64,000 nucleotides of DNA from Kitasatospora herbaricolor (GTDB lineage: Bacteria; Actinomycetota; Actinomycetes; Streptomycetales; Streptomycetaceae), in assembly GCF_030813695.1 (NCBI RefSeq), contig NZ_JAUSVA010000002.1, positions 2,728,001 to 2,792,000 on the forward strand, written 5' to 3'. A program made the translations under genes and the position numbers. This document shows positions 30,327-50,955 of the stretch, in pieces (position 1 is the stretch's first letter; each line of letters begins with the position of its first letter). The notes below the pieces were generated by a model. That model was not told the DNA's origin. It made no database searches and saw only the letters and a list, made by a program, of their open reading frames with translations.

Positions 30327-30346
30327 GAGAGGGTCCTGACCTGCGA

Positions 30347-30433
30347 TCACAGCACCTGGAGGTTCTTGCGCAGCTCGAACGGCGTGACCTCGGAGCGGTA
30401 CTCCTCCCACTCCTGGCGCTTGTTGCGCAGGAA
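30347..30433 (-). pseudogene. Displaced 3' end of glnA2 (last ~28 codons)
   Basis: On the minus strand this reads FLRNKRQEWEEYRSEVTPFE and then LRKNLQVL before a TGA stop, identical in protein to the end of the intact glutamine synthetase-like gene at 52,320-53,681, whose stop is TAA instead. Upstream homology ends abruptly at 30,433. It is the original chromosomal end of glnA2, cut off by the element. Confidence 0.95.
30349..30433. repeat. attL of the integrated element (85-bp direct repeat)
   Basis: 85 bp identical to 52,322-52,406. The match runs from the last base of the stop codon into glnA2; bases just outside differ (TGA against TAA) and the inner side diverges after GCGCAGGAA. It marks the left junction. 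Confidence 0.95.
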
Positions 30434-30538
30434 CTGACACCCCGTACTACTCACCTGCGAGGTTGCACGGAGAACCTTCCTTGACCTGCAACGGAGCCGT
30501 CGGCATCTGGCAGTGCTGGTTGCCCTTGGTCCGCCGCG

Positions 30539-30559
30539 CACGGCCCAGAGACGGCCCAG
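30539..30559 (+). repeat. Left arm-type repeat of the element
   Basis: A 21-bp sequence, CACGGCCCAG-AGA-CGGCCCAG in outline, identical to 52,204-52,224. It lies 106 bp inside attL while its partner lies 98 bp from attR, so in the circle they flank the core in direct orientation, like integrase arm sites. The 8-mer CGGCCCAG occurs twice per copy at 11-bp spacing. Apart from this and the dyad at 30,741, region 30,434-30,975 shows no gene. Confidence 0.7.
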
Positions 30560-30740
30560 CAGCAAGACAAGAAATGGGCGCCCGGCCTGCCAGTCGCCCC
30601 GGTCCGCTGCCGGGCGAAACAGATGAGCACAACTCCCCCCTCAGCCCCACCGCACCACGCACAGGCGGCCCGCACTGGAGAAGCTGGAAGCGCGAGACGG
30701 GACTGCAACACCCCCGTGGCGTTACAGCCCACTCTCAGGC

Positions 30741-30830
30741 CTGGACAGACCGCCATCAGCTGTCCGGGCACTGTCCGGGCCGTTCTTGCAGCTCAGGTCA
30801 GGTAGCAGGACACCCGGACAGGCCGGACAG
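30741..30830. repeat. GGACAG dyad, copy A
   Basis: A cluster of CTGTCC (30760, 30771) and CGGACAG (30815, 30824) words in inverted arrangement, plus one GGACAG at 30,743. First CTGTCC to last CGGACAG spans 71 bp, nearly the same as copies B (35,735-35,806) and C (50,586-50,657). Confidence 0.7.
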
Positions 30831-30975
30831 TAGACCACCCCGTCCGAGTGTCCTGCCGATCGCGCCAACACGCCACGTGCGCAACCGTTGACCATTGCGG
30901 AAGGACTCGGTGTGGCCAAGACCAAAACGGATGACTGACTAGGAGGCGGTAACAGCTCAGGAGCTGAACCGGGCA

Positions 30976-31269
30976 ATGCTGTACGACAGCATCGCCTCGC
31001 GGTTGCGTGCCCTCCGCCGGAAGGGGTCCGGGCAACGCTTCGAGCAGTCGGACGCGGCGGCCTGGGTGCAGTTGGGCCTCCAGAGGCCCCGCTTCAACTC
31101 TGCGGACTCCCCGGCCTTCACGGTCGACGTCTCGGTGATCGATCACCGGGCGGAGGCCTACCGAGCCGACTGGCTCCAAGACCGCATCAACCAGACGGCC
31201 AGCAGCGTAGTCGCCGCGGTGACCGACTCCGTCATGCCCGGAATCCGCCGCCACCTCGACAAGACGTGA
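30976..31269 (+). CDS. DUF4304-like cargo protein, 97 residues
   Basis: MLYDSIASRLRALRRKGSGQ, then LGLQRPRFNSADSPAFTVDVSVI resembles the conserved heart of DUF4304 proteins (long helix, K-G-x-x-F, then Q-x-S-x-x-x-x-x-x-FTV). It is shorter than typical members, lacking the C-terminal half. CAGGAG lies 12 bp before the ATG. It is the first gene of the cargo block; function unknown. A truncated gene copy is possible. Confidence 0.6.
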   Translation: MLYDSIASRLRALRRKGSGQRFEQSDAAAWVQLGLQRPRFNSADSPAFTVDVSVIDHRAEAYRADWLQDRINQTASSVVAAVTDSVMPGIRRHLDKT

Positions 31270-31401
31270 GCAGACCTGCTCATCGGGCGGGTCGGTTCCG
31301 GCGCACCATCCTGATGGCCGATCACAGCGCGCACGGCAAATCAGATCCTGTAAGCGTGGCAATCGGAGGCACAGCGGTTGGGCAGAGTGGAGGCGTCGCC
31401 G

Positions 31402-32007
31402 ATGGCTCAGGATTCAGGAGGGCTCCTCTCCAACCTCGCGGTCCCGCTCTTAGCTGCGGGCATCACCGCACTCGTCGGAGCCGTTGGATCCTCGTTACAG
31501 GACCGGCGTCAACGGAGGCGCGACGATGTCCGTCGCCGACATGCCTTCGACGACGCGCAGGCGCACGTCACCTTCCTCTCCCTGTGGCTTGCGGCCTACC
31601 AGGCCGTTCAGCCTGATACGCAGATCGATGAACCTCGCCGGCGGGCTGCTGACTCCCTCGACGACGTGTTCCGGACCTTGCAGACCGCGCTGTCAGTACC
31701 GCGTCCCAGAGCCGCACGGCCGGGGCTCTGGTCCCGCATCCGGGTGGCTGCCCTCCTGATCCCACTGAGATCTTGGGGGGCGTCATTTGTCCGTGCCGCC
31801 TTCTACCTTGTGATCATCATCGTGGGCGGCGTAGCGCCAAGGATCCTGGCTGACAATACGCACGGGTGGGCCGACCGTGTCGGCTCAACACTCACCTTCG
31901 TTGCGTTCGCGGGTGCTGCCCTATATGGGCTGTGGCGGCTGGTCCGGTTCCTCTCCGCTCGCAGTGAGGCTTCGCGCAACGCGGGCGCCAGCCCTTCCGG
32001 CACCTGA
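31402..32007 (+). CDS. Cargo membrane protein, 201 residues
   Basis: ATG with GGAGG 8 bp upstream. Three likely transmembrane segments: near the N-terminus (NLAVPLLAAGITALVGAVGSS), about 135-155 (AAFYLVIIIVGGVAPRIL) and about 165-185 (LTFVAFAGAALYGLWRLV). Between the first two is a basic, coiled cytosolic stretch (QDRRQRRRDDVRRRHAFDDAQAHV). No family is recognised. Small membrane proteins beside defence genes sometimes act as effectors, but nothing here proves that. Confidence 0.65.
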   Translation: MAQDSGGLLSNLAVPLLAAGITALVGAVGSSLQDRRQRRRDDVRRRHAFDDAQAHVTFLSLWLAAYQAVQPDTQIDEPRRRAADSLDDVFRTLQTALSVPRPRAARPGLWSRIRVAALLIPLRSWGASFVRAAFYLVIIIVGGVAPRILADNTHGWADRVGSTLTFVAFAGAALYGLWRLVRFLSARSEASRNAGASPSGT

Positions 32008-32168
32008 CCCAAGGCCGGGCACGCTCGCGCAATCGATCCCAACAACTAGACCCTGGGGTCCTTAAGCCGTAGGTGGCGGCGCACGCCGGATGCTTCGCGA
32101 TCCATTCTGCGACGCTCGAACCGGCAAGCTCGCAAGGCGAGGACTGGGATGCCAGTCACTTCTTGACT

Positions 32169-32295
32169 CAGGAACTGACGATGCTTCGTTCTCACCTGGT
32201 ACTCGGCCCAGTCGACCGGCTCTGACCTGCTGCGGAACCGTCGGCACCTGCCGGCGATGGTCCGCCTTGCACAGCCCACAGACGACCCAGAACTG
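32169..32295 (+). repeat. Decayed second copy of the element's left terminus
   Basis: CAGGAACTGAC at 32,169 repeats the attL inner junction (30,429). TGACCTGC follows 54 bp later in both places, then a matching CCGTCGGCA block, and finally GCACAGCCCACAGACGACCCAG-like sequence corresponding to the 21-bp arm site with three mismatches. One 9-bp deletion separates the copies. The rest of 32,008-32,420 holds no gene. Confidence 0.65.
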
Positions 32296-32420
32296 GAACC
32301 CGCTCTACAAGGATTGGCGTGCGCCCCTGGCTCTCACCTGCGGCCGCCCAACCTGGCCACCTGGCCGCGTCCGCGCGGGCAGCGACCTCAATTCACCGTC
32401 ATGAAGGACCCACAATCCGT

Positions 32421-33464
32421 CTACCCCAGCGGTGCGTTCAAGATCGCAGTAGCAATGAGACCAAGGCCCTTCGCCATGCGGACCGGGACGGCGTTGCCGA
32501 TCTGCCGCTCGATGGAACCGTAGTTTCCGTAGAACCTGTACGTCACGGGGAACGTCTGGAAGGTCGCGGCCTCACGCAGTGTCAGTCCGCGGTTCTTCGT
32601 TGGGTGGATGAACGTACCGCAGGCCGGCGTCGTGCAACGGGTAGTCATCGTGGGAGCCGGTTCATCGAGCTTGATCCTCCCGTACGAGGAGGCAGCGTTG
32701 CGCGGGTTGGCGAGGCGCCTATGGCAATCCAACTGGTGCTCTACCGGAAGGTCGAAGCGGTTCCCGCCCACTGGGATGGCCGCGATCCTCGCCTCGACAG
32801 CAGCCGAGCTAGTTCGGTGGACATCTAGCGAGTCGTCTGTACGTCGGTGGCGCGCAAGGTGATCCAGCGCGTGTCGAGCGGTCCGGGGGGTTGCCCGGAA
32901 GCTGTCTGGCAGCAGGTCGATCACGTCTCTCTCGAAGAGAAACGGCACGTCAGCACGGAGCGCGAAGCAGATGAACCGCTTCCGCCGCTGCGGCACACCG
33001 AACATGGCCGCGTCCAGGACAGTTGCTTTCAACTTGTATCCGGCACCAGTCAACAGACGATCAAGTTCGGGGCGCCGGCTGTCACGGGCGAGTCCGGGTA
33101 CGTTCTCCAACAGCACGACTTTCGGCCGCAGCGCCTCAACGAATCGGAAGGTATCCAGGACAAGGTCGTTGCGTCGCTCATCAACTGCACCGTTCGCCAA
33201 GCTGGAAAATCCCTGGCACGGCGGGCAGGCCTTGAGCAGGTCAAGTTCGCCCGGGACGAGCCCGGCAGCAGCCAGGATGTCCGCTGGCTCCACAGCCCGG
33301 ATGTCCTTCGCGAAGAGACACACTCTCGGGTGATTCCTGCGGTACGTTTCCGCAGCTTCCGGGTCGTTCTCCACGGCGGCGAGCATCCGAAAGCCGGCGT
33401 CTCTCAGGCCTCGTGTCGCTCCCCCCGCCCCGGCGAACAGGTCGACAGCGCTGTACGTGGGCAT
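32421..33464 (-). CDS. DNA (cytosine-5) methyltransferase of the cargo module
   Basis: 347 residues, complete. Motif I AVDLFAGAGGATRGL (6-20), motif IV PPCQGFS with nucleophile C83, motif VI ENV (120-122), motif VIII QRRKR (159-163), a target-recognition region (about 190-280), motif IX LTLREAATFQTFP, motif X IGNAVP. It methylates C5 of cytosine in a specific site that cannot be predicted. It is divergent from a GHKL-ATPase/nuclease gene across a ~110-bp gap, which suggests it is the protective half of a restriction-like pair. No Vsr gene accompanies it. Its GC content is visibly lower than that of the backbone genes. Confidence 0.95.
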   Translation of the reverse strand: MPTYSAVDLFAGAGGATRGLRDAGFRMLAAVENDPEAAETYRRNHPRVCLFAKDIRAVEPADILAAAGLVPGELDLLKACPPCQGFSSLANGAVDERRNDLVLDTFRFVEALRPKVVLLENVPGLARDSRRPELDRLLTGAGYKLKATVLDAAMFGVPQRRKRFICFALRADVPFLFERDVIDLLPDSFRATPRTARHALDHLARHRRTDDSLDVHRTSSAAVEARIAAIPVGGNRFDLPVEHQLDCHRRLANPRNAASSYGRIKLDEPAPTMTTRCTTPACGTFIHPTKNRGLTLREAATFQTFPVTYRFYGNYGSIERQIGNAVPVRMAKGLGLIATAILNAPLG

Positions 33465-33574
33465 GGCGCGATCTTAGTCGGTCAGGCCACCTGCGCGACA
33501 GGTGAACCCTGGTGACGGTTACTCAGATGTGCTTAGCTCGTGCTCTACGTGACGACACCGGGGTGGGTGGGCAT

Positions 33575-35692
33575 ATGAGGCATGCGAGTGCGGACGAGCC
33601 GGAGACCAACAGCTTGATCCCGGCACTGCCAAGGCAGAGCTCCAAGAGCCGTGGGGAGTCTGAAGCTGGCACGCCCCTTGGGGATGAAGCCTCCGCGCCC
33701 TACCGCATGCGGATCAGCAGGCTCACGGTCGACAAGCTGGGCATCAAGCTGTACGACCGCGTCTCCGCTGTCCTCGCAGAGATCATCGCCAATGCATACG
33801 ACGCGGATGCAACAGAGGTAACAGTGCGCCTGCCGTTCGATACATGGCTGGCTCCAATGGCTGGAAAGCCCATTACCGAGCCGCATGAGATCACGGTCGT
33901 GGACAACGGGCACGGGATGACGTCCGATGAGGTGAATAGCCATTACCTGCTCGTCGGCTCTGATCGGCGTAGGCGTTTCGGAAAGGACACGTCTCGACGC
34001 AGAGAACGGCGCGTAATGGGACGGAAGGGTATCGGGAAGCTAGCGCCATTCGGCATCTGCCGAACAGTGGAAGTCATCACTGCCGGCGGCGAGCCAACGG
34101 AACACGGTTATCGCGTATCCCATATCAAGCTTCACCTCGAAGACATGTTGTTTGACAGCGAGAAGGATTACATCCCTGAGGTCGGACATCGGGACGGCAC
34201 CTTCAGCCCGAAGGCAGGCACAACGATTCACCTTTCGGACTTCAATCGAAAGCTGGTACCCAAGGGAGAGGAACTGCACAGGCAGCTGTGCGCTCGATTT
34301 GGAATCCGCCGTGACGACTGGGACGTCAATGTAGTTAACACAGGGCTGAGCGGAGCACTGCCCGGGTTCACGGAAGATTCGTTTCGTCTCGGAGAGCTAA
34401 AGATCGACCTTCAGGAGGACACGAAGGTCACGTTCGATCGGACCCTGATTCCACACACAGGCGCTGACCCTCTCCCCGTCTCAGGCTGGCTTGCCTACGC
34501 CAAAGATGCCTATAAAGACGAAGTTATGGCCGGGGTCCGGATCTATGTCCGGGGAAAGATCGTCGCCACTACCCGAGACTTCGGAGCCACCAGTGGCTAC
34601 ACAGGAGAATGGGGCGTCCGCTCGTACCTGGCGGGGGAAATCCATGCCGAGTGGCTCGACGAGGAGGAAGACCTGGTTCGCTCTGACCGCCAAGACATCA
34701 TCTGGTCTTCTGAGCTTGGTCAGGTGCTGCAGACTTGGGGCGTAGGACAGATCAAGGCTCTTGCCAAACGAGGACGGTCGTCAGTCCGAAAGCGCACCAG
34801 AGAGGTTTTCGAGCAAGCCGCCGACTTGAACTCACGTCTCCTCGCCGACGCACCAGGCGACTCGCGATATCGGGATTCAGTAAAAGAAGCTTTCCGCGCC
34901 CTCGTATCCGACAGCGACCGCGAGTCAGCTTCGGATCCTGAAAGAGTCGAGCGTTACGTCGAGCTAGCCAAAACCATCGCGCCGCATCGGGATCTCCTGG
35001 ACACTCTACGCAAGGTATCAGAAGAGGTGGACAATCCCCTCGACGTAGTCCTTGCCCTGTTCCAGAAGGCCAGAATCGCAGAATTCTACGCACTTGGCCA
35101 GGTGGCACAGGAACGCGTGGATGTCGTCAATAGGCTCCGCGATCTTATCGCGGACGGAAATACCCTTGAGCGACCTCTTCAGGAGCTAATCGAGAAAGCT
35201 CCCTGGTTGCTGGCCCCCGAGTGGACTCCTCTGGGAATGAACGAAACCCTGGATCGTGTCCGGGACAGCTTCGAGACCTGGTGCTTCACAAACCGGGGGA
35301 GTTTTGTTGCGACCCCAAGCATCCCCAATTCCGAGCGTCGGCCAGATTTCGTACTTCTCAACGGTGCCAGAGGGACACTCTGGGTCGTAGAGATCAAGCG
35401 AGTCAACTACCGACTGACGGATGAAGAGTTCAGCCGGGCAGTGGATTACCTAGGGGCACTAGAAGACTTCCTGGATGACACCCCTGAGCTAGGAAGGGAA
35501 TTTCCTATCAGGCGCCTCACCTTTATTGTCGATCACATTGATCGACTGAGTCGCGCCAATCGCAAGCTTCTTGAGAACAATGAACAGATTGAACGGCGCA
35601 ACTGGCACGACCTTCTTGAGCAGACCGATCGAGCCCATCGAGATTTCCTCGCAAAGGTCAAGAAGATCCGCCATCAGTCTGCAGGCCTGTAG
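33575..35692 (+). CDS. GHKL (Hsp90/MutL/MORC-like) ATPase fused to a PD-(D/E)XK nuclease-like domain
   Basis: 705 residues from ATG 33,575 (GTG at 33,512 possible). The N-terminal GHKL fold has the N-box AVLAEIIANAYDADA (about 66-80), G1 box VDNGHGM (109-115) and G2 box GRKGIGKLAPFGI (149-161). A transducer-like S5 region follows. A helical middle (about 410-535) leads to a Shedu/DUF4263-like C-terminal domain: LQELIEKAPWLLAPEW (535-550), RPDF (589-592) and VVEIKR (604-609), i.e. D...E-x-K of PD-(D/E)XK nucleases. It should couple ATP-driven clamping to DNA cleavage. Bacterial GHKL ATPases of the MORC/MutL group are known beside methylases in restriction systems. Codon use is visibly more AT-rich than in the backbone. 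Confidence 0.88.
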   Translation: MRHASADEPETNSLIPALPRQSSKSRGESEAGTPLGDEASAPYRMRISRLTVDKLGIKLYDRVSAVLAEIIANAYDADATEVTVRLPFDTWLAPMAGKPITEPHEITVVDNGHGMTSDEVNSHYLLVGSDRRRRFGKDTSRRRERRVMGRKGIGKLAPFGICRTVEVITAGGEPTEHGYRVSHIKLHLEDMLFDSEKDYIPEVGHRDGTFSPKAGTTIHLSDFNRKLVPKGEELHRQLCARFGIRRDDWDVNVVNTGLSGALPGFTEDSFRLGELKIDLQEDTKVTFDRTLIPHTGADPLPVSGWLAYAKDAYKDEVMAGVRIYVRGKIVATTRDFGATSGYTGEWGVRSYLAGEIHAEWLDEEEDLVRSDRQDIIWSSELGQVLQTWGVGQIKALAKRGRSSVRKRTREVFEQAADLNSRLLADAPGDSRYRDSVKEAFRALVSDSDRESASDPERVERYVELAKTIAPHRDLLDTLRKVSEEVDNPLDVVLALFQKARIAEFYALGQVAQERVDVVNRLRDLIADGNTLERPLQELIEKAPWLLAPEWTPLGMNETLDRVRDSFETWCFTNRGSFVATPSIPNSERRPDFVLLNGARGTLWVVEIKRVNYRLTDEEFSRAVDYLGALEDFLDDTPELGREFPIRRLTFIVDHIDRLSRANRKLLENNEQIERRNWHDLLEQTDRAHRDFLAKVKKIRHQSAGL

Positions 35693-35713
35693 GATTCAGG
35701 AAGACCCCGTCAC

Positions 35714-35833
35714 CCCGGACAGTCCTGGTGAACGCTGTCCGGGGCGTTGTCCGGCCTGTTACCCCAGTTCAGGGCCCATGCCCGGACAGCCGGACAGCCC
35801 GGACAGTAACCCCCTTGCCGTTGGCTGTCCGGG
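35714..35833. repeat. GGACAG dyad, copy B
   Basis: Fills the gap between the convergent ATPase and XRE genes. CTGTCC at 35,735, TGTCC at 35,748, and CGGACAG at 35,783, 35,791 and 35,800, with outlying words at 35,716 and 35,825. Core span 72 bp. It could also serve as a bidirectional terminator for the two genes. Confidence 0.7.
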
Positions 35834-37069
35834 CTACTGGCCGACTCCGCTCAGGGCGTTCAAGTGGTCGAGGTACACCCTCGTACCGGGCTCATTGCCG
35901 TACTGCATACTGACCAGGCCCGCCAGTTCGCGGCTTACGGCCAGCAGCGATGGGAGCGACTGCCGTTCACCCCTCAGAGCCCATTCACCGTAGTTCAGGG
36001 CACGTTCCAAGTCCCCGTCCCGGGCAGCGACTACGCCCAGCGTCAGCCGCGCTTCCGCGATGCGCATGGGTGAGCGTTCCGTGCCGTCATAGTCGGTGCT
36101 AGCCCGGATGACTTCTTCTGCGAGAGTCGTGGCGAGCTTGTTCTCGCCGAGCATCCGGTAGCAGTCCATGGCGTAGAAGTCGTACTTCGCCGGGTCCACC
36201 ACGAAGTGGTTGTCCAGATTCTCGGGGTAGGGCATGCCTTCGAGCAGGCGGCGCCCGCGGTCGAGCGCCACCTCGGCCTGCCGGCGATCCCCGAGGCGAG
36301 CCCACGCCTTGGCCTCCTGAGCGGCGAGCTGCACCGCAACGCCCTGGTGCGCCGCCACCTCGGCGCCCGCCCTGGACGCGGCGATTACGCCCCGGTAGTC
36401 GCCAGTAGTCAGCGCGAACCAAGCCCGCATCTCGTTCGCCCAACCCTGGATGCCCGCATGCTCGGCCTCGGCCCCGAGCGAGAGCGCTGCCCGCCGGGTG
36501 GACTCGGCCGCCCGCTTGTCACCCATGTCGTACTCAACACAGCCCACGAGCAGGGCCAGCCAGCCAGACATGGCCAGTACTTCCCGGTGCTGCGCCAGCG
36601 TTAGCCGCTGAGCTTGGAGCCCGACCACCCGCTTCAGCCACTGCCGCCCTTCGACGGCGAGCTGCGCGCTCGGGAGCTGGGCATATTCCGAGCAGAGCCG
36701 GTCGGTCGTGATGCGGAGTGCGTCCATCGTCGCGTTGTCCACGTCGGAGGCTTGCAGGCGGCTGATGATGTCGAGCGTCTCCATCCCGCTCGCCGCGGCG
36801 ATTTCGGCATTACCGTCCCGGCGGCCGGCAACCGGGAAGAGCGCGTGCGTGACGGTCCCGAAGGTCGCGGCAATGAGCGGTTGGTAGAACTCGCTCGGCA
36901 CTACTTCACCAGACTCCCAGCGCTTCCACTGCCGGAGCATCGTCGGGTCCTCCGGCAGTCTCTTCGGCGAGTGCGCCCTCAACGCCGCGATGGTGTCAGC
37001 CTGCGACCAGCCGCGAGCGTCCCGCTCTGCGGTCATACGCCGTGCCCATGCGGGCCTGTCCAAGCTCAT
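35834..37069 (-). CDS. XRE-type regulator with TPR domain
   Basis: 411 residues. The N-terminal helix-turn-helix is MTAERDARGWSQADTIAALR...MLRQWKRWESG (about 10-55). The remainder is helical, TPR-like (repeated A-x-x-x-G/A-W and RRAALSLG-type helices), as in the large actinobacterial family of peptide- or signal-sensing XRE-TPR regulators. The ATG is set by GGGAGG 6 bp upstream. Upstream lies an array of (G)TGACAC words that is probably its own operator. Likely role: control of excision or transfer of the element. Confidence 0.85.
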   Translation of the reverse strand: MSLDRPAWARRMTAERDARGWSQADTIAALRAHSPKRLPEDPTMLRQWKRWESGEVVPSEFYQPLIAATFGTVTHALFPVAGRRDGNAEIAAASGMETLDIISRLQASDVDNATMDALRITTDRLCSEYAQLPSAQLAVEGRQWLKRVVGLQAQRLTLAQHREVLAMSGWLALLVGCVEYDMGDKRAAESTRRAALSLGAEAEHAGIQGWANEMRAWFALTTGDYRGVIAASRAGAEVAAHQGVAVQLAAQEAKAWARLGDRRQAEVALDRGRRLLEGMPYPENLDNHFVVDPAKYDFYAMDCYRMLGENKLATTLAEEVIRASTDYDGTERSPMRIAEARLTLGVVAARDGDLERALNYGEWALRGERQSLPSLLAVSRELAGLVSMQYGNEPGTRVYLDHLNALSGVGQ

Positions 37070-37136
37070 GGTGCCCTCCCTGTGGGGGTGGTGCTTGCTC
37101 TGAGTTTGGCACTGCAAAACGCCTGGACAGCAGGGG

Positions 37137-37189
37137 GTGACAGACCAGTGACACCCCCTGTGTCACCCAGTGACACCTGCCCCTGTCAC
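37137..37189. promoter_or_regulatory. Operator array upstream of the XRE-TPR gene
   Basis: Five copies of a TGACA(C) word in 53 bp: direct at 37,137, 37,148 and 37,170, inverted at 37,160 and 37,184. The central pair forms the perfect palindrome GTGTCAC-CCA-GTGACAC (37160-37176). The direct copies are 11 and 22 bp apart, on one helix face. It lies between the XRE gene and the GntR gene's 3' end. Confidence 0.65.
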
Positions 37190-37217
37190 TAGTGGATCAC
37201 TCGCGACTATCCGATGG

Positions 37218-37598
37218 TTAGTCAGGAACGGACGATCCGACTACACGCCGTTCAAGTTCAGCGACCCGTGCCACCAACTGCTCCACCTGGGAGGCGAGAT
37301 TCTCCACCTGGCTACGCACATCGCCGCCCGCAAGCGAGGGCGTGCCTGTTTCAAGTGCCGCCGGGTCCAAGTCACTTCGGACAAAGGTGCCCCGTCCGGG
37401 ACTGGCCGCGATGAGCCCTTCCTCACGGAGCACCCGAAGGCCGTTGTGCACGGTCATCTCGGCGATCCCAAACCGCTCCGCAAGCTTCTTCACGGAGGGC
37501 AGCTTCGCCCCTGGCTGGTGCACCCCTGAAGCGATCTCCGCCCGGAGAATGTCCGCCACCTGCATGTATGGCGCCCGCTCACCCTGCACAAGAGTCAT
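37218..37598 (-). CDS. GntR-family repressor (KorSA-like control of transfer)
   Basis: 126 residues. GntR winged helix YMQVADILRAEIASGVHQPGAKLPSVKKLAERFGIAEMTVHNGLRVLREEGLIAASPGRGTFV (about 11-73). There is no large ligand domain; instead a C-terminal coiled coil (SQVENLASQVEQLVARVAELERRVV) for dimerisation. Small GntR proteins of this kind (KorSA in pSAM2) repress the transfer and replication genes of AICEs. It faces the long rightward backbone operon across a 208-bp gap with strong CTAGA palindromes. Confidence 0.88.
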   Translation of the reverse strand: MTLVQGERAPYMQVADILRAEIASGVHQPGAKLPSVKKLAERFGIAEMTVHNGLRVLREEGLIAASPGRGTFVRSDLDPAALETGTPSLAGGDVRSQVENLASQVEQLVARVAELERRVVGSSVPD

Positions 37599-37647
37599 GC
37601 CCCAAGCCTAAGCCCTGGGGTGCTCTAACACGCCTAGGGCAATAGGC

Positions 37648-37683
37648 TTGACGACCTAGATGCATCTAGAGCACTCTAGATGC
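37648..37683. promoter_or_regulatory. CTAGA palindromes, probable GntR operator and backbone promoter
   Basis: A perfect 14-bp palindrome CTAGATGCATCTAG (37656-37669) overlaps a second inverted repeat with 10-bp arms GCATCTAGAG / CTCTAGATGC (37662-37671, 37674-37683). A -35-like TTGACG sits at 37,648. Position in the divergent gap makes it the natural site for autorepression by the GntR protein. Confidence 0.65.
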
Positions 37684-37806
37684 CAGGAGAAAGGCCGCGC
37701 AGAACTCCAAGTGGCCTGCTTCCCCCTCCATATCCCTGGGCCTTCTTTGGGCTGCTCGGACGCAGAGGAAACGAACACCAGGGGCCCCGGACAGAGAGGT
37801 AGGCCC

Positions 37807-38046
37807 ATGAGATTGATTGTTGCTGGCCAGGAGGCCGCCACGGCTTCCGAGTTCGCCGAGCTGGCGTTCGGCATCGACGTGGAGCTGTTCGCCGGGACGT
37901 TCGGGGAGTCCGCGCTTTCGCGGCGGGCCCGGCTGGCGGTCGCGAACGAGGTGCTGTGGGACCTGGGCCCGGAGGAGGCCAGGTACGCGAAGGCCCTGAT
38001 GCGCACGGCGGCCCGCCGCCGCCTGCTCACCTGGAGGGCCGCCTGA
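37807..38046 (+). CDS. Small hypothetical protein, first gene of the backbone operon
   Basis: 79 residues: MRLIVAGQEAATASEFAELA..., a helical, acidic-then-basic protein ending in RTAARRRLLTWRAA. GAGAGG precedes the ATG. Its TGA shares a base with the ATG of the next gene, so they are coupled. No family is recognised. Confidence 0.75.
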   Translation: MRLIVAGQEAATASEFAELAFGIDVELFAGTFGESALSRRARLAVANEVLWDLGPEEARYAKALMRTAARRRLLTWRAA

Positions 38047-38351
38047 TGGCCCTCCCCCACCGGCGCGCCGCCCGCGTCACGCTCCTCCCGGCCCCCGAGG
38101 CCGAGCCCGACCTGTCGGGCGCCCTGTGCCGCGACGTGCCCGACCCGGACGTGTTCTTCCCGGAGGACGGCGACGAGCTGGGCGTGGCCCGTGCCAAGCG
38201 CATCTGCGTGAAGTGCCCGGTGCGCTCCGCGTGCCTGGCGCTGGCGCTGGAGCGCTCCGAGCCGCACGGCGTCTTCGGCGGCCTCGACCCGGTCGAGCGC
38301 CGCCGACTGCGGCGCTCGACCGCCGGTGGCGAGAGGGCGGGGGCGGCGTGA
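38046..38351 (+). CDS. WhiB-like (Wbl) iron-sulfur regulator
   Basis: 101 residues. Four cysteines C28, C54, C57 and C63 in the Wbl spacing C-xn-C-x2-C-x5-C (GALC ... RICVKCPVRSAC) bind a [4Fe-4S] cluster. The downstream GVFGGLDPVERRRLRR is the G-[VI]-W-G-G turn with Phe for Trp, plus the basic DNA-contact stretch. Wbl proteins act with the housekeeping sigma factor and respond to redox or NO. On an AICE it may tie element genes to host development or stress. Confidence 0.92.
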   Translation: MALPHRRAARVTLLPAPEAEPDLSGALCRDVPDPDVFFPEDGDELGVARAKRICVKCPVRSACLALALERSEPHGVFGGLDPVERRRLRRSTAGGERAGAA

Positions 38352-38632
38352 TAACCGGCAACCTCAAGCGCTTCGGGTGGGCGGCGGCCCTGCTCGCCGT
38401 CGCCTTCCCCTCCGCCGCCGGGACGGTCCTTTCCGCGCTCACCGCGGTGGCGGCGGTCCTGCTGGCCCACCCGACCGTGGCGTGCACCGTCGCCGCCGGG
38501 CTGCTGCTCGCGAGCACGCTGCCCGCCCTGCGCCACCGCATCATTCGAATCCGCCGCCGGTGGCAGCTGCACCGCGCGGCCGGCTTCGGCGGCCTGACCT
38601 CGTCTCGACTGACTTTCGTGGGGGACCGATGA
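38348..38632 (+). CDS. Small membrane protein of the transfer operon
   Basis: 94 residues from GTG, overlapping the Wbl stop by 4 bp. Two hydrophobic spans (WAAALLAVAFPSAAGTVLSAL and VAAVLLAHPTVACTVAAGLLLAST) are followed by a strongly basic tail (RHRIIRIRRRWQLHR). It is coupled at both ends (ATGA with the next gene). The position and form are those of Spd-type spread proteins, but no homology is recognised. Confidence 0.75.
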   Translation: MITGNLKRFGWAAALLAVAFPSAAGTVLSALTAVAAVLLAHPTVACTVAAGLLLASTLPALRHRIIRIRRRWQLHRAAGFGGLTSSRLTFVGDR

Positions 38633-39795
38633 GCATCACCGAGCTGCGGCCCACCGGCCGCACCCGGGCGGCGTCCAAGCCGGCCGGGAAGGAAGCCGCC
38701 GAGGCCGAGGCCCTGCGGGCGAAGACCGCGACCGCCAAGGCCGCGGCGGACATCGCCAACCAGCTGAAGGCGGCCAAGGCCGCCGCCGAGATCGCCGCCG
38801 GCGAGGCCCAGGCCCAGGAGGTCCGCGAGGCCGCCGCCGACAAGCGGCGCGAGGCCGAGCGGCAGCGCACCGAGGCCGCCGCCGCCCGGCAGAAGGCGGA
38901 GCGGTCCGCCGCCCAGTGGCGCACCTACGCCAAGACCATCGCGGTCATCTGCGTGGTCGTCTCCCTGCCGCTGCAGATGATGGCGTTCTGGTCCCCGAAG
39001 GCCTGGTTCCTGCTCGCCGCACCGCTGGTGCTGGAGGGCCTGGCCTGGGCTCTGCTCAAGGGCGCCGAGGCCGCGATCGACGACCACCGGCCGTCCTGGC
39101 ACTACCGGGCGCTGGCCGGAGCCGTGGCCCTGTTCGCCGCCACGGTGAACTTCCTGCACGGCAGCTCGGCGTTCGGCCTCGGCACCGGTCTGGGCGGGGC
39201 GTTCTGCTCGCTGGCCGGACCGCTGGTCTGGGACCTGCACGAGCACGGCCGCATCCGCAAACGCGACGGCAAGGTGAGCCGCCGCCGGCGCCGCGCCGAG
39301 GCCCGCCAGGTCGCCGCCGAGGCGGCCGAGCAGCTGGCCGCCGAGCAGAAGGCGGCCGACGACCGCGAGGCCGTCGAGATCTCCCGCTCCGTTCAGTGGC
39401 CGCAGGCGTGGGAGCGCGCCGTGGCACTCGCCGCCGCGGTCGGCGAGCTGCACCCCAGCGAGACCACGTGGAAGCGCGCGTGGGACGACACCGCCGGCGC
39501 GCCGCTGGGCGACACGGCCGAGTCCATCGCCGCCCGCGTCGCCGCGAAGGCCGCGACCAAGGAAGCCGCCAAGGACCAGACGAACCCGGTCGAAAAGGTG
39601 GAAAAGCCGCAGGTCGAATCCCAAGTGACCGCCCCGCGCGGCACCTCCGCGAACAAGCGTCCGGACGGGCGCCGCAACAACGGCGGGACCCCGCCGCGGC
39701 AGAAGGCCGGCAGCTACCCGAAGTACTCGCCGATCGCCCGCCGCGCGATGTCGCTGGCCGCCAAGAAGCAGCAGCCCGCCCGCACCGCTAGCTGA
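38629..39795 (+). CDS. Spread-type membrane protein, DUF2637-like
   Basis: 388 residues. The N-terminal third is a long Ala/Lys/Glu/Arg coiled coil (about 20-100). Then about four hydrophobic helices: TIAVICVVVSLPLQMMAFWSP, WFLLAAPLVLEGLAWALLKGA, LAGAVALFAATVNFLHGSSAF and GLGGAFCSLAGPLVWDLHEHG, resembling the DUF2637 membrane domain of Streptomyces plasmids and AICEs. A second coiled coil and a basic Lys-rich tail follow. Probably part of intramycelial spread (Spd) beside TraB. Confidence 0.8.
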   Translation: MSITELRPTGRTRAASKPAGKEAAEAEALRAKTATAKAAADIANQLKAAKAAAEIAAGEAQAQEVREAAADKRREAERQRTEAAAARQKAERSAAQWRTYAKTIAVICVVVSLPLQMMAFWSPKAWFLLAAPLVLEGLAWALLKGAEAAIDDHRPSWHYRALAGAVALFAATVNFLHGSSAFGLGTGLGGAFCSLAGPLVWDLHEHGRIRKRDGKVSRRRRRAEARQVAAEAAEQLAAEQKAADDREAVEISRSVQWPQAWERAVALAAAVGELHPSETTWKRAWDDTAGAPLGDTAESIAARVAAKAATKEAAKDQTNPVEKVEKPQVESQVTAPRGTSANKRPDGRRNNGGTPPRQKAGSYPKYSPIARRAMSLAAKKQQPARTAS

Positions 39796-39852
39796 CCCCG
39801 TCCGCCCCCGCGCACGACCCCCTTCGAGACATCCCGAACCAGGAGGTCGACC

Positions 39853-40311
39853 GTGTCCGACGCCCACTCCAGCCGCGCCGCCCGCTTCGCCGCCGCCTAC
39901 GCCCTGCTCCGCGCGGCGGCGGACGTGGCGGACCACTGGGTCCAGACCGACCACCAGGCCCGCGCCAAGGGCCAGCACGACCACACCGACGGGCAGTCCA
40001 GCGCGGCCGGCCGCCGCGCCTGCGCCGCCCACGTCGCCACCTACACCGCCACCCAGGCCGGCGCCCTGCTGCTCGGCTCCCGCGTGCTGGGGGTGCGCCT
40101 GCGGCCCGGCCCGGTGGCCGCCGCCCTCGCCCTGTCGGCCGTCACGCACTACGTCGCTGACCGGCGCGAGCCCCTGCGCCGCCTCGCCGACGCCACCGGC
40201 AAGAGCAACTTCGTCCGGCTCTCCGACTTCGGCATGAACGGCGCCTACTGCCTCGACCGGGCCTGGCACCACGCCTTCGAGACCGCCGCCGCCCTCATCG
40301 CCTCCGCCTGA
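39853..40311 (+). CDS. DUF3307-like small membrane protein
   Basis: 152 residues from GTG with AGGAGG. AADVADHWVQTDHQARAKG resembles the H-x-x-x-D-F-x-x-Q-x-x-x-x-A-x-x-K motif of DUF3307. Two hydrophobic stretches follow (TQAGALLLGSRVLGV, VAAALALSAVTHYVADRR), then a His-rich C-terminus (LDRAWHHAFETAAALI). Common on actinomycete plasmids; function unknown. Confidence 0.75.
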   Translation: MSDAHSSRAARFAAAYALLRAAADVADHWVQTDHQARAKGQHDHTDGQSSAAGRRACAAHVATYTATQAGALLLGSRVLGVRLRPGPVAAALALSAVTHYVADRREPLRRLADATGKSNFVRLSDFGMNGAYCLDRAWHHAFETAAALIASA

Positions 40312-40378
40312 ACCATCCCCGCAACCAAGGAACGGCGCATCCCACCGACCCGCACCGCTCTGTCCGAGGAGAACGGCC

Positions 40379-40567
40379 ATGGCCGAGAACACCCAGCCCA
40401 CCTACGTCGTCACCGCCACCAACGCGGACGGCAGCCCCTACCAGGACCGGCTCAGCAGCGCTCTCAGCGTCCCGGCTTCCGCCGCCGTCCACGGCGAGCA
40501 GGACCTCGCCACCCGCCAGGGAGCCGCCGACCAGGCCGGGGTGACCCTCCACGTCCGCCAGGTCTGA
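40379..40567 (+). CDS. Small hypothetical protein, 62 residues
   Basis: MAENTQPTYVVTATNADGSP... ends VTLHVRQV. GAGGAG precedes the ATG. A soluble, probably beta-rich protein, just before the translocase gene. No family is recognised. Confidence 0.7.
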   Translation: MAENTQPTYVVTATNADGSPYQDRLSSALSVPASAAVHGEQDLATRQGAADQAGVTLHVRQV

Positions 40568-40573
40568 TTTCGC

Positions 40574-40616
40574 CCCGGGGCGGCCGACAGCTTGCCGGCC
40601 AGGCGACCGCCCCGGG
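40574..40616 (+). terminator. Hairpin between the 62-residue gene and traB
   Basis: 10-bp perfect arms CCCGGGGCGG / CCGCCCCGGG with a 23-nt loop that can pair further. It may attenuate read-through into the translocase gene. Confidence 0.45.
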
Positions 40617-40657
40617 CCCCCTTTCCCGCACCACTGAGCAGTGAGGAAGGACCCTCA

Positions 40658-42985
40658 GTGAACCACGAGGACCACGACCCGAACCCCCTGCCCGACCCCG
40701 CCACGAACACCCCGAACGCCGACGGCGGCGACGTGCTGCCGTTCCCCGACCGCTTCGCCAAAACCACCCCCGCCAACGGGTCCACCCCGGCCCCCGTTCC
40801 CGCCCCCGTGGCGGCCGCGGGCCCCGAGGGCGACTCGGTGTACCTGCCGCCGGTGGTGGCGGCAAGCGGACGGGAGGACCCGGCCGGGGACCGGCCGCTG
40901 GTCCCGGCGTGGATCCGCACCCGTGAGGGGCGGCGCACGATGACCCGCGCCCGCGCCAAGCAGCTGCGGCGCTCCGCGCGACGGTGGCTGGCCCGCCAGA
41001 GCACCACCCGCGGGCACGCCGCCCAGGCCTGGCGCGGCATACGGCGATCCCACCAGTGGACGGCCGGGTTCGAGGGCGCCCACGTGCAGGCCGCCGGCCA
41101 CCAGGCCCACATCGCCGCCCGCGAGGCCCGCGACCTGGCCCGCCGCGCCCGCTTCACCCTGCTGCCCGGCGACCGGGCACTGGCCCAGAAGCAGTCCGAG
41201 GCCGCCCTCGCCGTCGCCGTGGCCGCGGTCGCCGCACACAAGAAGGCCAAGTCCAACCGGCGCCGGATCCGCTTCGCCCGCGCCTTGGTCGCCTACGGCA
41301 TCCCCGCCGCCGCCGTCCTCGCCGCCTACGGTGCCCTGGGCACCGCCGGGCTGCTGCTCGGGGCGACCGCCGTCCTCGGCTTCGAGGCGTTCCTCGGCCG
41401 CCGCCCCGACCGGGAGACGGTGTGGGACGCGGACGTGCGGGCGCTGTCCGACGGGGACCCGCTGACCGAGTCGATGCTCGACCGGGCGTTCAAGGCCGCC
41501 AAGGTCATCGGCGAGTCCCAGCGCCTGACCATGGTCACCCCCTGCGCCATCGACCCTGCCGTACCGAACGCCTGGCACGCCGTGATCGACCTGCCCGACA
41601 TCACCGTCAAGAAGGCCCGCGACAAGGCGGACGAGATCGCCGCCGCGATGGGCATCGACCGCACCAACCTCGACATCCGCCAGGTCGGCTCCAACGGCCG
41701 CCGGATGGCGATCTGGGCCTGCGGCCAGGACCCGTTCCTCGCCACCCGCCGCAACCCCCTCGCGGCCGGCCGCACCAAGCAGGTCAACACCTGGCGCGAC
41801 GGCTTCCCCCTCGCCTTCGACAAGCGCGGCAACGTCCTGCGCCCGACCCTGTCCGACTACTCGTTCCTGTTCGCCGGCGCCACCCGCTCCGGCAAGGGCA
41901 TGGGCCTGGCCAACCTGCTCGCCGCCGCCATGCTCGACCCCCGGGTGCGGATCCGGCTCTTCGACGGCAAGGGCGCCGGCGAGTACGTCCCCCACGCCCG
42001 CGCGCTGGCCACGTTCGTGCGCCGCAACCCCGGACGGCTCGTCAAGTTCCTGCGCCTGATGGTCGAGGAGATGAACCGTCGCACCGAGATCCTGGTCGAG
42101 GCCGGGCTCTCGAAGGCGAACGAGAAGCTGATCGACAAGCTCGGCGGGATCGAGCTGGTCATCATCGACGAACTCGCCACCTACACCGCCAAGAACGGCC
42201 CCTCCGGCAAGTACGCCGAGGAGATCACCGAACTTCTCGCGCAGATCGCCGCCGTCGGCGCCGCGGTCGGCATCGTCCTGGCGCTGGCCACCCAGTACCC
42301 CGAGGCCGAGATCGTCACCCCCCGCCTGCGCGGCAACCTCGCCGCCCGCATGGCGATGCGAGTCGAGTCGCCGGGCGCGTCCAACGTCGTCCTCGGGGAC
42401 GGCATGGTCGGCCAAGGCTACGACGCCTCCAAGATCCCGATCGAGAAGACCAGCCGGGGCCGCGCCTGGCTGACCACCCCCGACACCGGCGTCATCGAGG
42501 TCCGCTCCCTGTTCATCGACGAGGCCGCCGGCGAGATCCTGCCGCTGATCGAGACCGGGGTGCAGCTGCGCAAGGCCGCCGGATGCCTGCCCGGCCACGA
42601 CGACGACCCGATCGAGGCCGCCATGCTCCGCCAGACCGGCGTCAGCGCCTCCGCCGGCGGCACCGACGGCCTCGGCTCGGTGATCCGCCGCACCGTCCTC
42701 GACCACATGATCACCGCTGCCGAGCAGGCCGACGGTGGCCTGGTCACCGTCATGGACCTGCTCGCCCGACTCTCCGACATCGACCCGGACCGCTACGCCC
42801 GCACCGAGCGTGAGAGCGCGAACGCCTGGCAGTCCCGCGCCTCCAAGGCCCTGAAGAGCGAACTGGCCGGCCTCGGGGCCGAGGTGGAGCAGATCCGCAT
42901 CACCCAGGCCGACGGCTCCCGGCCGATGGGCTACGCCCTGGCCGACCTGCGCACCGCCGCCGCTGGCGTGGGCACAGCCGCCTGA
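40658..42985 (+). CDS. traB: FtsK/SpoIIIE-type DNA translocase for conjugation (TraB/TraSA)
   Basis: 775 residues from GTG (GAGGAAGG upstream). A Pro/Ala-rich N-terminus, a basic helical stretch, then two transmembrane helices (about 212-245; LVAYGIPAAAVLAAYGALGTAGLLLGATAVLGF). The motor domain has Walker A GATRSGKGMGL (about 406-416) and Walker B ELVIIDELATY (about 498-508). A C-terminal winged-helix-like region (about 680-760) probably reads the clt DNA sequence. A single hexameric translocase of this type moves double-stranded AICE DNA between hyphae. Repeats right after the stop are a candidate clt. Confidence 0.93.
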   Translation: MNHEDHDPNPLPDPATNTPNADGGDVLPFPDRFAKTTPANGSTPAPVPAPVAAAGPEGDSVYLPPVVAASGREDPAGDRPLVPAWIRTREGRRTMTRARAKQLRRSARRWLARQSTTRGHAAQAWRGIRRSHQWTAGFEGAHVQAAGHQAHIAAREARDLARRARFTLLPGDRALAQKQSEAALAVAVAAVAAHKKAKSNRRRIRFARALVAYGIPAAAVLAAYGALGTAGLLLGATAVLGFEAFLGRRPDRETVWDADVRALSDGDPLTESMLDRAFKAAKVIGESQRLTMVTPCAIDPAVPNAWHAVIDLPDITVKKARDKADEIAAAMGIDRTNLDIRQVGSNGRRMAIWACGQDPFLATRRNPLAAGRTKQVNTWRDGFPLAFDKRGNVLRPTLSDYSFLFAGATRSGKGMGLANLLAAAMLDPRVRIRLFDGKGAGEYVPHARALATFVRRNPGRLVKFLRLMVEEMNRRTEILVEAGLSKANEKLIDKLGGIELVIIDELATYTAKNGPSGKYAEEITELLAQIAAVGAAVGIVLALATQYPEAEIVTPRLRGNLAARMAMRVESPGASNVVLGDGMVGQGYDASKIPIEKTSRGRAWLTTPDTGVIEVRSLFIDEAAGEILPLIETGVQLRKAAGCLPGHDDDPIEAAMLRQTGVSASAGGTDGLGSVIRRTVLDHMITAAEQADGGLVTVMDLLARLSDIDPDRYARTERESANAWQSRASKALKSELAGLGAEVEQIRITQADGSRPMGYALADLRTAAAGVGTAA

Positions 42986-43007
42986 ACGCCCGTTCTGTCC
43001 TGGTTTT

Positions 43008-43191
43008 GACCGCCGCCAAGCCGCCGCCACTCGTGGAAAACCGCAGGTCACAGCCCTGCGGACCATGTCGCGACCGCCGCCGACCTTCGCCGCGAACGCC
43101 CTCGTCAGGCATGCCCCGGCACGGGCCTGGCGGCGGTCGGCAGGGCGCTGACCTGCGACGATCCACGTCCGGCCGAGGTCCGGCGGCGGTC
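43008..43191. repeat. Candidate clt locus: four inverted 10-mers downstream of traB
   Basis: GACCGCCGCC occurs in direct orientation at 43,008 and 43,072, and inverted (GGCGGCGGTC) at 43,129 and 43,182. A 7-bp-arm hairpin CCGCAGG / CCTGCGG lies at 43,041-43,061. The 257-bp gap 42,986-43,242 has no gene. Streptomyces TraB proteins bind short repeats near the end of their own gene. Confidence 0.55.
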
Positions 43192-43242
43192 GACGACCAA
43201 CTCAAACCACCCCAAACCGCTCTCCCGGAAGGGAGCCCGTCC

Positions 43243-43434
43243 GTGCTGCTCACCGTCTCCGCGGCCACCTTCTTCGGTGTCCTGCTGGTCGTCATGCTCC
43301 GCCTTCGCGCCGTCAGCGCCGGCGGTGCCGTGGTGGCCGCCCTCTTCGGCTTCTATCTCGCCTCCACCGGCGTCGCGCCCGCCGTCAACCAGGCACTCGC
43401 GGACGTCTTCCGCTCCCTTCCCGGCCTGCACTGA
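43243..43434 (+). CDS. 63-residue membrane protein of the AICE
   Basis: GTG start with AAGGGAG. VLLTVSAATFFGVLLVVMLR-LRAVSAGGAVVAALFGFYLA gives two short hydrophobic spans around a basic turn; the tail VAPAVNQALADVFRSLPGLH is amphipathic. Small two-span proteins next to traB are a constant feature of AICEs; function unknown. Confidence 0.78.
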   Translation: MLLTVSAATFFGVLLVVMLRLRAVSAGGAVVAALFGFYLASTGVAPAVNQALADVFRSLPGLH

Positions 43435-43451
43435 ACGAGAGGACCGAACCG

Positions 43452-44000
43452 ATGACCCGCACCCGCACCGCCGCGCTGCTCGCACTGCCGGACCTCGCGT
43501 TCGTGGCCGACGGCGGCGAACTGGTCCGCGAGATCGAGCGCTACCTCGCCACCCAGCCCAAGCCCCAGCCGACCCGGTACGCCGTCCCCACGGTCTGCCC
43601 GCACGGCCAGGCCCCGGTCACGTGGGACCTGGGCATGACCCGCCCGCAGCCCACCGCCATGGACCGCCTGCGCCGCCGCCCGCCGGCCCCGACCCCGATC
43701 GACACCGCCACCCACCTGCGCCTGCTCTCCCGCTACCTCACCGTCCACGGCTGGTGCCAGGGGCTCCTCTGGGACGAGTCCGGCCGCCGCTGCCTGCTCG
43801 GCGCCCAACTCGCCGTCCTCGCCGCCGGATACGGCACCCAGGCCACCGCCATGGACGCCCGCCGCCACCTGATGGAGCAGTTCACCGCCCAGGACCCCAC
43901 CGTCCGCACCGTCGACCAGTGGAACGACCACCCCGGCCGCACCGCCGCCCAGGTCCACCGCGCCCTGGACATCGCCGCCGCCCGCGCCGCCCGCCACTGA
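43452..44000 (+). CDS. Conserved AICE hypothetical protein (DUF6197-like)
   Basis: 182 residues. The core HLRLLSRYLTVHGWCQGLLWDESGRRCLLGAQLAVLAAG followed by TVRTVDQWNDHPGRTAAQVHRALDIAAA fits a family frequent on Streptomyces plasmids and AICEs; I relate it to DUF6197 only tentatively. Soluble, with a Pro-rich linker at about 65-85. It lies 17 bp after the 63-residue gene, in the same operon. Confidence 0.78.
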   Translation: MTRTRTAALLALPDLAFVADGGELVREIERYLATQPKPQPTRYAVPTVCPHGQAPVTWDLGMTRPQPTAMDRLRRRPPAPTPIDTATHLRLLSRYLTVHGWCQGLLWDESGRRCLLGAQLAVLAAGYGTQATAMDARRHLMEQFTAQDPTVRTVDQWNDHPGRTAAQVHRALDIAAARAARH

Positions 44001-44017
44001 CCCGGAAGGACACCGCC

Positions 44018-44533
44018 ATGAGCGTCACCCTCGAACCGACCGGCCCCTGGCTGCTGCGCCGCACCGTGAACAGCCTGCTGCCCGAGGCCGCCCGGCTGGT
44101 CAGGGACCACATGCGCGAGCCGATGCCCGACACCCTGGTGCGCCTCGCCCGCCCCGGCGACTTCGGTCCCGCCGTCGCCCGCGTCACCGGCGGAAGCCCG
44201 AGCTGGTGGCGCACCGTGATGGAGAACGAGAGCCAGCGCCGAACCGCGCACATCGCCACCGGCATGACCGTCCCCACCGCGGACGGCCGCGTGCTGGTCC
44301 TGCTGCACATCGCCGCGATGCGCCAGGACGGCCAGATCTTCCCCACCCTCGTGCACGAGCTGGTCCACGCCGTGCAGATGAGCCGCCCCCGCACCGCCGC
44401 CGACGCCCTCGCCCGCAACCGCCACCACCTCGGCATCGAGCGCCAATCCCGCCGCTGGCTCACCGACCACAGCGCGTCCATCGGCCGCGACGAGGAAGAG
44501 GCCTACCGCATCGAGCATCTCCTCGCGGGCTGA
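44018..44533 (+). CDS. HExxH metallopeptidase-like protein
   Basis: 171 residues. FPTLVHELVHAVQMSRP (about 107-123) is a zincin HExxH motif in a helix. The distal ligand may be the Glu-rich RDEEEAYRIEH near the C-terminus, giving an HExxH...E arrangement. There is no signal or membrane span, so it acts in the cytosol. It lies 17 bp after the preceding gene with GGAAGGA as ribosome site. Anti-restriction and element-borne regulators sometimes carry such zincin folds, but the target is unknown. Confidence 0.75.
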   Translation: MSVTLEPTGPWLLRRTVNSLLPEAARLVRDHMREPMPDTLVRLARPGDFGPAVARVTGGSPSWWRTVMENESQRRTAHIATGMTVPTADGRVLVLLHIAAMRQDGQIFPTLVHELVHAVQMSRPRTAADALARNRHHLGIERQSRRWLTDHSASIGRDEEEAYRIEHLLAG

Positions 44534-44663
44534 CCCGCGCGCCTGTCTGCCCGACCGGCCGTGCCATCCGGACCGCTCCGCAGCCAGCGGTGCGGCCCGG
44601 GTGGTGCGGGGGACCGGACAGACCGCTCCCGGACCACCACGCGACGCCATTGGAGGCAGCCCC

Positions 44664-45140: not shown

Positions 45141-45163
45141 GCCCTGGCCCGGACAGCACGAAA

Positions 45164-45213
45164 CCCCGCAGCAGCCGGACGACCTTGCCGGGCTCAGGCC
45201 GGCTGCTGCGGGG
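45164..45213 (+). terminator. Terminator after ssb
   Basis: 15-bp perfect arms (CCCCGCAGCAGCCGG and complement) with a 20-nt loop lie 24 bp past the ssb stop. Confidence 0.65.
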
Positions 45214-45253
45214 CCAACCCGATCACGCACAAGACGAGACCGGAGCACCAAGC

Positions 45254-47729: not shown

Positions 47730-47749
47730 CCGCACCCGCTGGAGGAACC

Positions 47750-48457: not shown

Positions 48458-48468
48458 GCCGCTCTCCC

Positions 48469-48499
48469 GGCCGGTGGCCGCCCACAGCGGCCACCGGCC
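48469..48499 (+). terminator. Terminator after the clamp-like gene
   Basis: 13-bp perfect arms (GGCCGGTGGCCGC and complement) with a CCACA loop, 12 bp past the stop. Confidence 0.6.
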
Positions 48500-48548
48500 C
48501 ACCCCGGCCACCACAGCGCCTCACCGGCCCCACGAAAGGCACCGCCCC

Positions 48549-50584: not shown

Positions 50585-50585
50585 A

Positions 50586-50952: not shown

Positions 50953-50955
50953 TAC

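Follow-up and report, generated by a model that had tools for sequence, protein, structure and literature searches.

In a stretch of 64,000 nucleotides from Kitasatospora herbaricolor (contig NZ_JAUSVA010000002.1, positions 2,728,001 to 2,792,000, referred to here as the window), two divergent genes on an integrative element probably constitute a two-gene, ATP-gated, Type II-like restriction-modification (R-M) system. One gene (32421..33464, minus strand) encodes a C5-cytosine DNA methyltransferase of 347 amino acids, here called M, and the other (33575..35692, plus strand) encodes a GHKL ATPase fused to a PD-(D/E)XK nuclease, here called R, of 705 amino acids from the ATG at 33575. The original prediction, that a complete methyltransferase gene faces a gene for a 705-residue protein at these positions, is confirmed by the reading frames. 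Its proposal of a restriction or defense pair is supported by the combination of a methylase with such a fusion and by the recurrence of this pairing elsewhere. Judged from their sequences, M and R both have intact catalytic motifs, and the two genes are an adjacent intact methylase and nuclease, as in Type II R-M systems.

The longest reading frame for R begins with a GTG at 33512 and encodes 726 residues to 35692, and the core shared with homologous proteins begins with the ATG at 33707 and has 661 residues, from which the residue numbers below are counted. Translation may plausibly begin before 33707, because the closest relative of R, encoded at locus L006 of genome G055 from the same genus, likewise has an N-terminal extension. 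Residues 1 to about 323 (33707..34675, plus strand; the end was estimated by eye on the model) make up a GHKL ATPase and S5-like module, recognized by residue conservation and fold matches. The Pfam profile HATPase_c_3 matches R with an E-value of 7.4e-18, and all the GHKL boxes that had been claimed for R are present: the N-box (E25-N29-D32), DNGHGM (66-71) and GRKGIGK (105-111). Conservation was counted in an alignment of 48 R proteins (A3) that contains the window protein, the protein from Nocardia jinanensis (L004) and 46 viral representatives; the other five of the 51 (L122, L123, L126, L149 and L152) were left out. E25, N29, D32, D66, G68, M71, K107, G108, G110 and K111 are found in all 48 proteins and G70 in 47, an invariance that is partly a selection effect because 46 of the proteins came from a two-pattern scan for the N-box and GRKGIGK. 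The residues of the C-terminal nuclease domain (35060..35692, plus strand) were not part of the scan patterns. E488, D547, E562 and Y581 are found in 48 of 48 proteins, and K564, the lysine of the E562-x-K564 motif, in 42, with Met in the remaining six.

An AlphaFold2 model of the R core has a mean predicted local distance difference test score (pLDDT) of 86.8 and a predicted template modeling score (pTM) of 0.66. In the 50 matches listed out of 589, Foldseek aligned this model to the ATPase modules of Hsp90/TRAP1 (mostly Hsp90), MORC and SMCHD1 with E-values of 3e-13 to 2e-10 over 386-494 columns. All 50 are GHKL ATPases, and no full-length fold relative of R is among them. GHKL and S5 domains are both described in MORC and Hsp90 in the available part of PMC2292703. 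The C-terminal 210 residues were modeled with higher confidence (pLDDT 94.1, pTM 0.87), and the predicted PD-(D/E)XK fold of this domain, which was part of the original prediction, is supported by the model and by both fold searches. Foldseek places the Shedu protein of Bacillus cereus first (E 6.3e-4), the sole match below 0.001. In VIA-align the Shedu nuclease 8ti9 has the top Z score, 10.6; the BspD6I nickase (10.4) and EndoMS/NucS (10.1) score within 1 of it and count as ties, and FokI is close at 9.1. The SduA_C profile matches R with an E-value of 0.017 and 15.7 bits, under its gathering score of 27; the same profile matches 9 of the 19 members of another alignment (A1) at E 0.1 or below, with a best value of 2.5e-6. 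The suggested likeness of the domain to Shedu/DUF4263 is favored by the fold matches, where Shedu is at the top though tied, but is not proven, and the profile match falls under its gathering score.

These matches bear on two other explanations of R. In the main rival reading, possible but unlikely, R would be a Shedu nuclease of type I-D that detects phage DNA unaided, through DNA ends, DNA structure or a phage protein, and M would be independent of R or would only temper self-damage. The Shedu domain among the tied best fold matches would fit such a role, as would the fusion itself, which is the same as in VcSduA, the Shedu type I-D protein of Vibrio cholerae; the word "methyltransferase" is absent from the available text of the VcSduA paper (PMC12137116). 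The low score on SduA_C argues the other way. It is hardly probable at all that R is instead a Type IV-like, modification-dependent nuclease whose targets carry the methylation of a rival system, with its own methylase there by coincidence. MspJI (Z 6.4), which we take to be modification dependent, and AspBHI (Z 6.8), so described by its entry title, appear lower in the VIA-align list, but several other PD-(D/E)XK enzymes score higher. A C5 methylase next to such a nuclease would also be harmful unless its mark goes unrecognized.

M matches PF00145 with an E-value of 1.1e-57 and exceeds the cut-off of TIGR00675 (156.2 bits, cut-off 100.65). The FAGAGG, PPC, ENV, QRR and GN motifs are visible by eye in its sequence. 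The methyltransferase of the divergent pair at L006 is 66% identical to M, and the R protein of that locus is 60% identical to the window R. The retention of the same divergent pair at L006 suggests that M and R are both kept under selection. This retention, the intact genes and the preserved catalytic residues argue against a third explanation, in which a solitary methylase serving element stability or counter-restriction sits beside a decayed or regulatory GHKL protein and no restriction takes place. Two points may be raised in its favor, namely that the host site is not known and that another methylase-like protein of the element may serve anti-restriction, but it is very improbable. The reading frame for this second C5 methyltransferase-like protein (45628-47400, plus strand, 590 residues) matches PF00145 in two stretches with an E-value of 5.6e-21 and lies elsewhere in the element than the pair.

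The pairing of R with a C5 methylase is found in other genomes and is more than chance. The nearest R proteins found are those of L006 (60%), Nocardia jinanensis (56%) and L025 in genome G125 of the same phylum (about 50%). A full-length close match to R is present in 2 of 70 genomes of the genus, its own included, and any match in 47, those outside the host (G000) and G055 being confined to residues 2-204. In a sample of the phylum, 2 of 396 genomes, again including its own, have a close match and 24 have any match. No relative turned up on viral contigs when R or M was the sole query; an alignment used as the query did find them. Of 163 relatives confirmed in this way the best 80 were kept, and in 75 of these viral loci a C5 methyltransferase was found near R with 24 methylase queries. 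The two genes are within 108 nt of each other or overlap in 73 loci and are 358 and 959 nt apart in the other two. The expectation that the neighbors would be conserved together elsewhere is borne out by these counts. Five viral loci have no methylase; one of them (L149) has no sequence upstream of R, and two (L113 and L154) have just about 1.5 and 2.2 kb downstream. In a plasmid collection 30 records match R, and a C5 methylase lies beside R in 9 of the 12 examined, with the window M alone as the query. Two records match R in a phage collection.

The order of the two genes varies. Methylase-first tandem genes are found in 35 of the 80 viral loci, convergent genes in 24, nuclease-first genes in 15 and divergent genes in one. 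After clustering at 90% identity the corresponding numbers for 51 representatives are 20, 15, 10 and 1, with five lacking a methylase. The divergent order, common to the window, L006 and one viral locus, is one of several. Among the 51 viral representatives 46 have a methyltransferase near R, as do L006 and L025, two of the three closest R genes, and this counts against a Shedu nuclease that acts alone. G055 also has a second, distant gene of the GHKL-nuclease type (L065, 5711-7720), followed some 1.1 kb downstream by a C5 methylase gene in the same orientation (8822-10090).

By its sequence, R is distantly related, along its full length, to Type II restriction enzymes of the BbrUII/HgiDII family. 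The NCBIfam model of this family, NF050001, matches residues 64-720 of the 726-residue reading frame over profile positions 1-649 of 659 (E 2.2e-72). All 19 members of alignment A1 match the same family, and PADLOC ranks a Type II restriction enzyme model first for R (E 3.7e-34). A search of the R genome with NF050001 found the R gene and two partial weak matches elsewhere.

Several results weigh against the interpretation of the pair as an R-M system. The first group concerns the family matches. R scores 244.6 bits on NF050001 and the curated equivalog cut-off is 550. When 20 relatives were scored singly, 11 had scores of 729-830 bits and 9 had scores of 175.6-315 bits. Since R is far under the cut-off that 11 of its relatives exceed, the function and site of HgiDII are not transferable to it. 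Matches below the cut-off also arise in 11 of 14 control genomes, so weak matches to this model mean little. For M, the top PADLOC model is DruM of the Druantia system (E 1.6e-79), with MTase_II narrowly second (4e-79). Druantia systems carry other genes such as the large helicase-type DruE, and no helicase family was found in the 18 window proteins scanned with Pfam, a subset of the reading frames.

The second group of results concerns the partnership of M with R. In a careful tree of R proteins (59 rows; L070, L074, L062, L095, L067 and the R rows with no M were left out), the window, L006, L025 and six viral representatives fall on one side of a branch with a support of 100/100. In a quick tree of 73 rows the Nocardia protein joins the same group beside the window and L006 (99, starred). 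The M tree has a different topology, in which the methylases of L025 and the viral group fall with other viral-contig methylases and the window and L006 methylases are separate from them; the branches of L095 and L062 are long here. Holding all nine methylases together was rejected (log-likelihood 47.8 lower, approximately unbiased test p 0.0025) in a test whose group was defined from the R tree but which was run after the M tree was seen. Gene order follows the same division, with nuclease-first tandem genes in L025 and the viral group and divergent genes in the window and L006. The Nocardia locus has no C5 methyltransferase in 13,971 bp around R (64 methyltransferase queries), which suggests that R may not always need M. 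The C5 methyltransferase matches in that genome are distant and lie on contigs C20 and C1, not on C13 with R; they consist of one partly matched frame of 395 residues and a fragmentary set. Beyond L006, the nearest methylase to M is 44% identical and comes from genome G123 (L165, 6822-7865), where it is followed by an AAA_15/AAA_21 ATPase gene (7876-9702) and not by a GHKL-nuclease gene. No R homolog was found in 14 kb around it, and this methylase and ATPase are perhaps another two-gene defense pair.

M does not follow the phylogeny of R, and methylase partners were thus probably exchanged, and occasionally lost, within one nuclease lineage. Within the R clade one C5 lineage accompanies L025 and the viral group, another accompanies the window and L006, and none is near the Nocardia gene. 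Both the apparent exchange and the Nocardia locus may be counted in favor of a stand-alone Shedu nuclease. They also raise a further reading of the pair, one we consider quite unlikely, in which the methylase is an exchangeable add-on. R would then read no fixed short site for its methylase to match, its ATP-driven clamp would sense another state of the DNA, and methylation would act as a removable safety catch. If this is true, stand-alone Shedu proteins and true restriction enzymes would form one continuum. Alternatively, both methylase lineages may share one site.

An earlier idea, that the nearest methylases to M are partners of other GHKL-nucleases, was dropped; the set compared held such partners by construction, and a wider search gave the G123 methylase. 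Plasmid methylases that match M at up to 40% identity adjoin other partners, for example an NgoMIV-type endonuclease. Some methylases about 38-40% identical to M adjoin genes for ATP-binding and "response regulator receiver" proteins (L170, 134-6119; L171, 4893-10961), a layout that resembles the HEF_HK/Response_reg_2 arrangement as described in the available part of PMC8011034.

The last of the points against an R-M system comes from the search for a recognition site. The occurrences of GTCGAC, the site of M.HgiDII, and of every six-base palindrome (64 in all) were tallied for the window, the element, 400 kb each from the host and G055, and 100 kb each from four relatives in the genus that have partial GHKL matches only. 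GTCGAC occurs 326 times in 400 kb of the host where 418 are expected, and the similar values in the relatives indicate no special depletion. No six-base palindrome passed a filter that required an expected count above 15 and, in both carriers (host and G055), a ratio of observed to expected counts less than 0.7 times the lowest among the four relatives. CTCGAG is absent from the window (26.6 expected) and occurs 23 times in 400 kb of the host where 180 are expected. Its ratio is 0.13 in both carriers, 0.11 in G027 and 0.21 in G050, with weaker avoidance in G005 and G002, and because G027 and G050 avoid it likewise it is not a marker of the pair. The avoidance perhaps reflects restriction pressure within the genus that is old or shared.

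An R-M system nevertheless accounts best for the two genes together, and a mechanism may be proposed for it. M would mark one cytosine-containing site in resident DNA. R would act as an ATP-binding GHKL dimer whose arms shut on DNA in the manner of MutL, MORC and Hsp90. Closure driven by the nucleotide would bring two C-terminal PD-(D/E)XK domains together and result in a double-strand cut of DNA with an unmarked site. On entry into a new host, a leaderless transcript would probably let M be produced first, and the recipient would be protected before R accumulates.

The intergenic region is consistent with early production of M. The ATG of M at 33464 and the ATG of R at 33575 are separated by 110 nt. 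In a pairwise alignment, an 18-nt block (33460..33477, minus strand) is identical in the window and L006 and contains the start codon of M with a -10-like hexamer, TAAGAT, 6 nt upstream; the rest of the intergenic stretch is much less alike. Such spacing between a -10 element and the start codon is the layout of leaderless promoters in actinobacteria. The conserved block, seen in two sequences, may thus be a leaderless promoter of M, and prompt production of M after transfer would suit a mobile R-M pair. An operator candidate found by eye, the inverted repeat CACCTG-N5-CAGGTG at about 33488-33504, was dropped as it is not kept in L006.

The pair is located inside an integrative element of about 22 kb (30338..52406), close to its left end. 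The element is bounded by a direct repeat of 96 nt (30338-30433 and 52311-52406, 98% identical), and a glutamine synthetase gene (52320-53681, minus strand) has its 3' end inside the right copy. A tyrosine integrase gene (50956-52230) lies beside the end of the glutamine synthetase gene. In G005, G050 and G028, one match covers the left flank, reaching 97, 41 and 90 nt past the repeat, respectively, and another covers the glutamine synthetase end. The two overlap within the repeat and form one contiguous stretch; these genomes therefore show the empty site. A FtsK/SpoIIIE-type protein (40592-42985, Pfam) and SSB and AAA_25 proteins are also encoded, a content which we take to be in keeping with an actinomycete integrative and conjugative element (AICE). 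The repeat, the empty sites and the integrase bear out the earlier proposal that the pair is cargo of a mobile element. No tRNA gene was found in the window with ARAGORN. A 33-nt stretch just inside the left repeat (30539-30571) is 85% identical to the 3' end of the integrase gene (52204-52236) and is perhaps the scar of an earlier or neighboring element. A neighboring regulator gene has its best DNA matches in Streptomyces plasmids (29 of 32 records).

An ATPase-nuclease accompanied by a methylase recurs on viral contigs, on plasmids and on this integrative element. Depending on the source, such proteins carry three names: Shedu, Type II restriction enzymes (the curated family) and paraMORC3. 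In the parts of the literature that were searched no account was found of how the ATPase controls cutting. Searches that joined GHKL, restriction endonuclease, cytosine methyltransferase and phage returned nothing, and those for MZA/MzaB gave nothing useful beyond PMC12137116. With related nucleases that have two different methylases or none nearby, it can be tested directly whether recognition of the methylated site resides in the nuclease itself.

The original prediction could not name the arrangement, but the kind of system is already known from the paraMORC3 layout, the NF050001 family, which R matches below the cut-off, and the VcSduA fusion. Iyer, Abhiman and Aravind (2008, PMC2292703) described paraMORC3, in the available part of their paper, as GHKL and S5 domains followed by a C-terminal nuclease of the restriction endonuclease fold with an E-D-ExK motif, found in R-M contexts and sometimes alone. 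The window R has all of these: GHKL with its ATP-binding motifs, an S5-type domain behind it and a C-terminal E-D-ExK nuclease of the same fold. It also has the DNA methylase neighbor that is typical, though not universal, of paraMORC3, and the start of M is 110 nt from that of R. Set side by side by description only, the two differ in their hosts, as that paper states that paraMORC3 is prevalent in proteobacteria and Bacteroidetes and the window is actinobacterial.

VcSduA is described in the available part of PMC12137116 (2025) as an N-terminal GHKL ATPase with a C-terminal DUF4263 PD-(D/E)xK nuclease, and its phage defense is lost in ATPase mutants and in nuclease mutants. It is also stated there that such fusion proteins were earlier annotated as paraMORC3. 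The likeness to R is one of description. VcSduA differs from the window R in that the latter is adjoined by a C5 methylase and matches SduA_C below gathering. In phage PhiR44_1 (PV340563) genes annotated ParaMORC3 and Dcm adjoin as in the window, but they are convergent, they are carried by a phage with P2-style gene names, and their R protein, which is 27% identical to the window R, belongs to another clade and has 751 bits on NF050001, above the HgiDII cut-off. M.HgiDII is a 5-methylcytosine methyltransferase that acts on GTCGAC, according to the available part of PMC5867850. The BbrUII/HgiDII systems share with the window pair a GHKL-nuclease that is alike along nearly the whole profile and a C5 methyltransferase partner. 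The window pair differs from them in its divergent genes and in the target-recognition region of M, which by eye does not resemble the one in methylases that accompany members scoring above the cut-off. Features that stand out in the window pair are the divergent order, the 18-nt block of leaderless type and a methylase that departs from the phylogeny of its nuclease.

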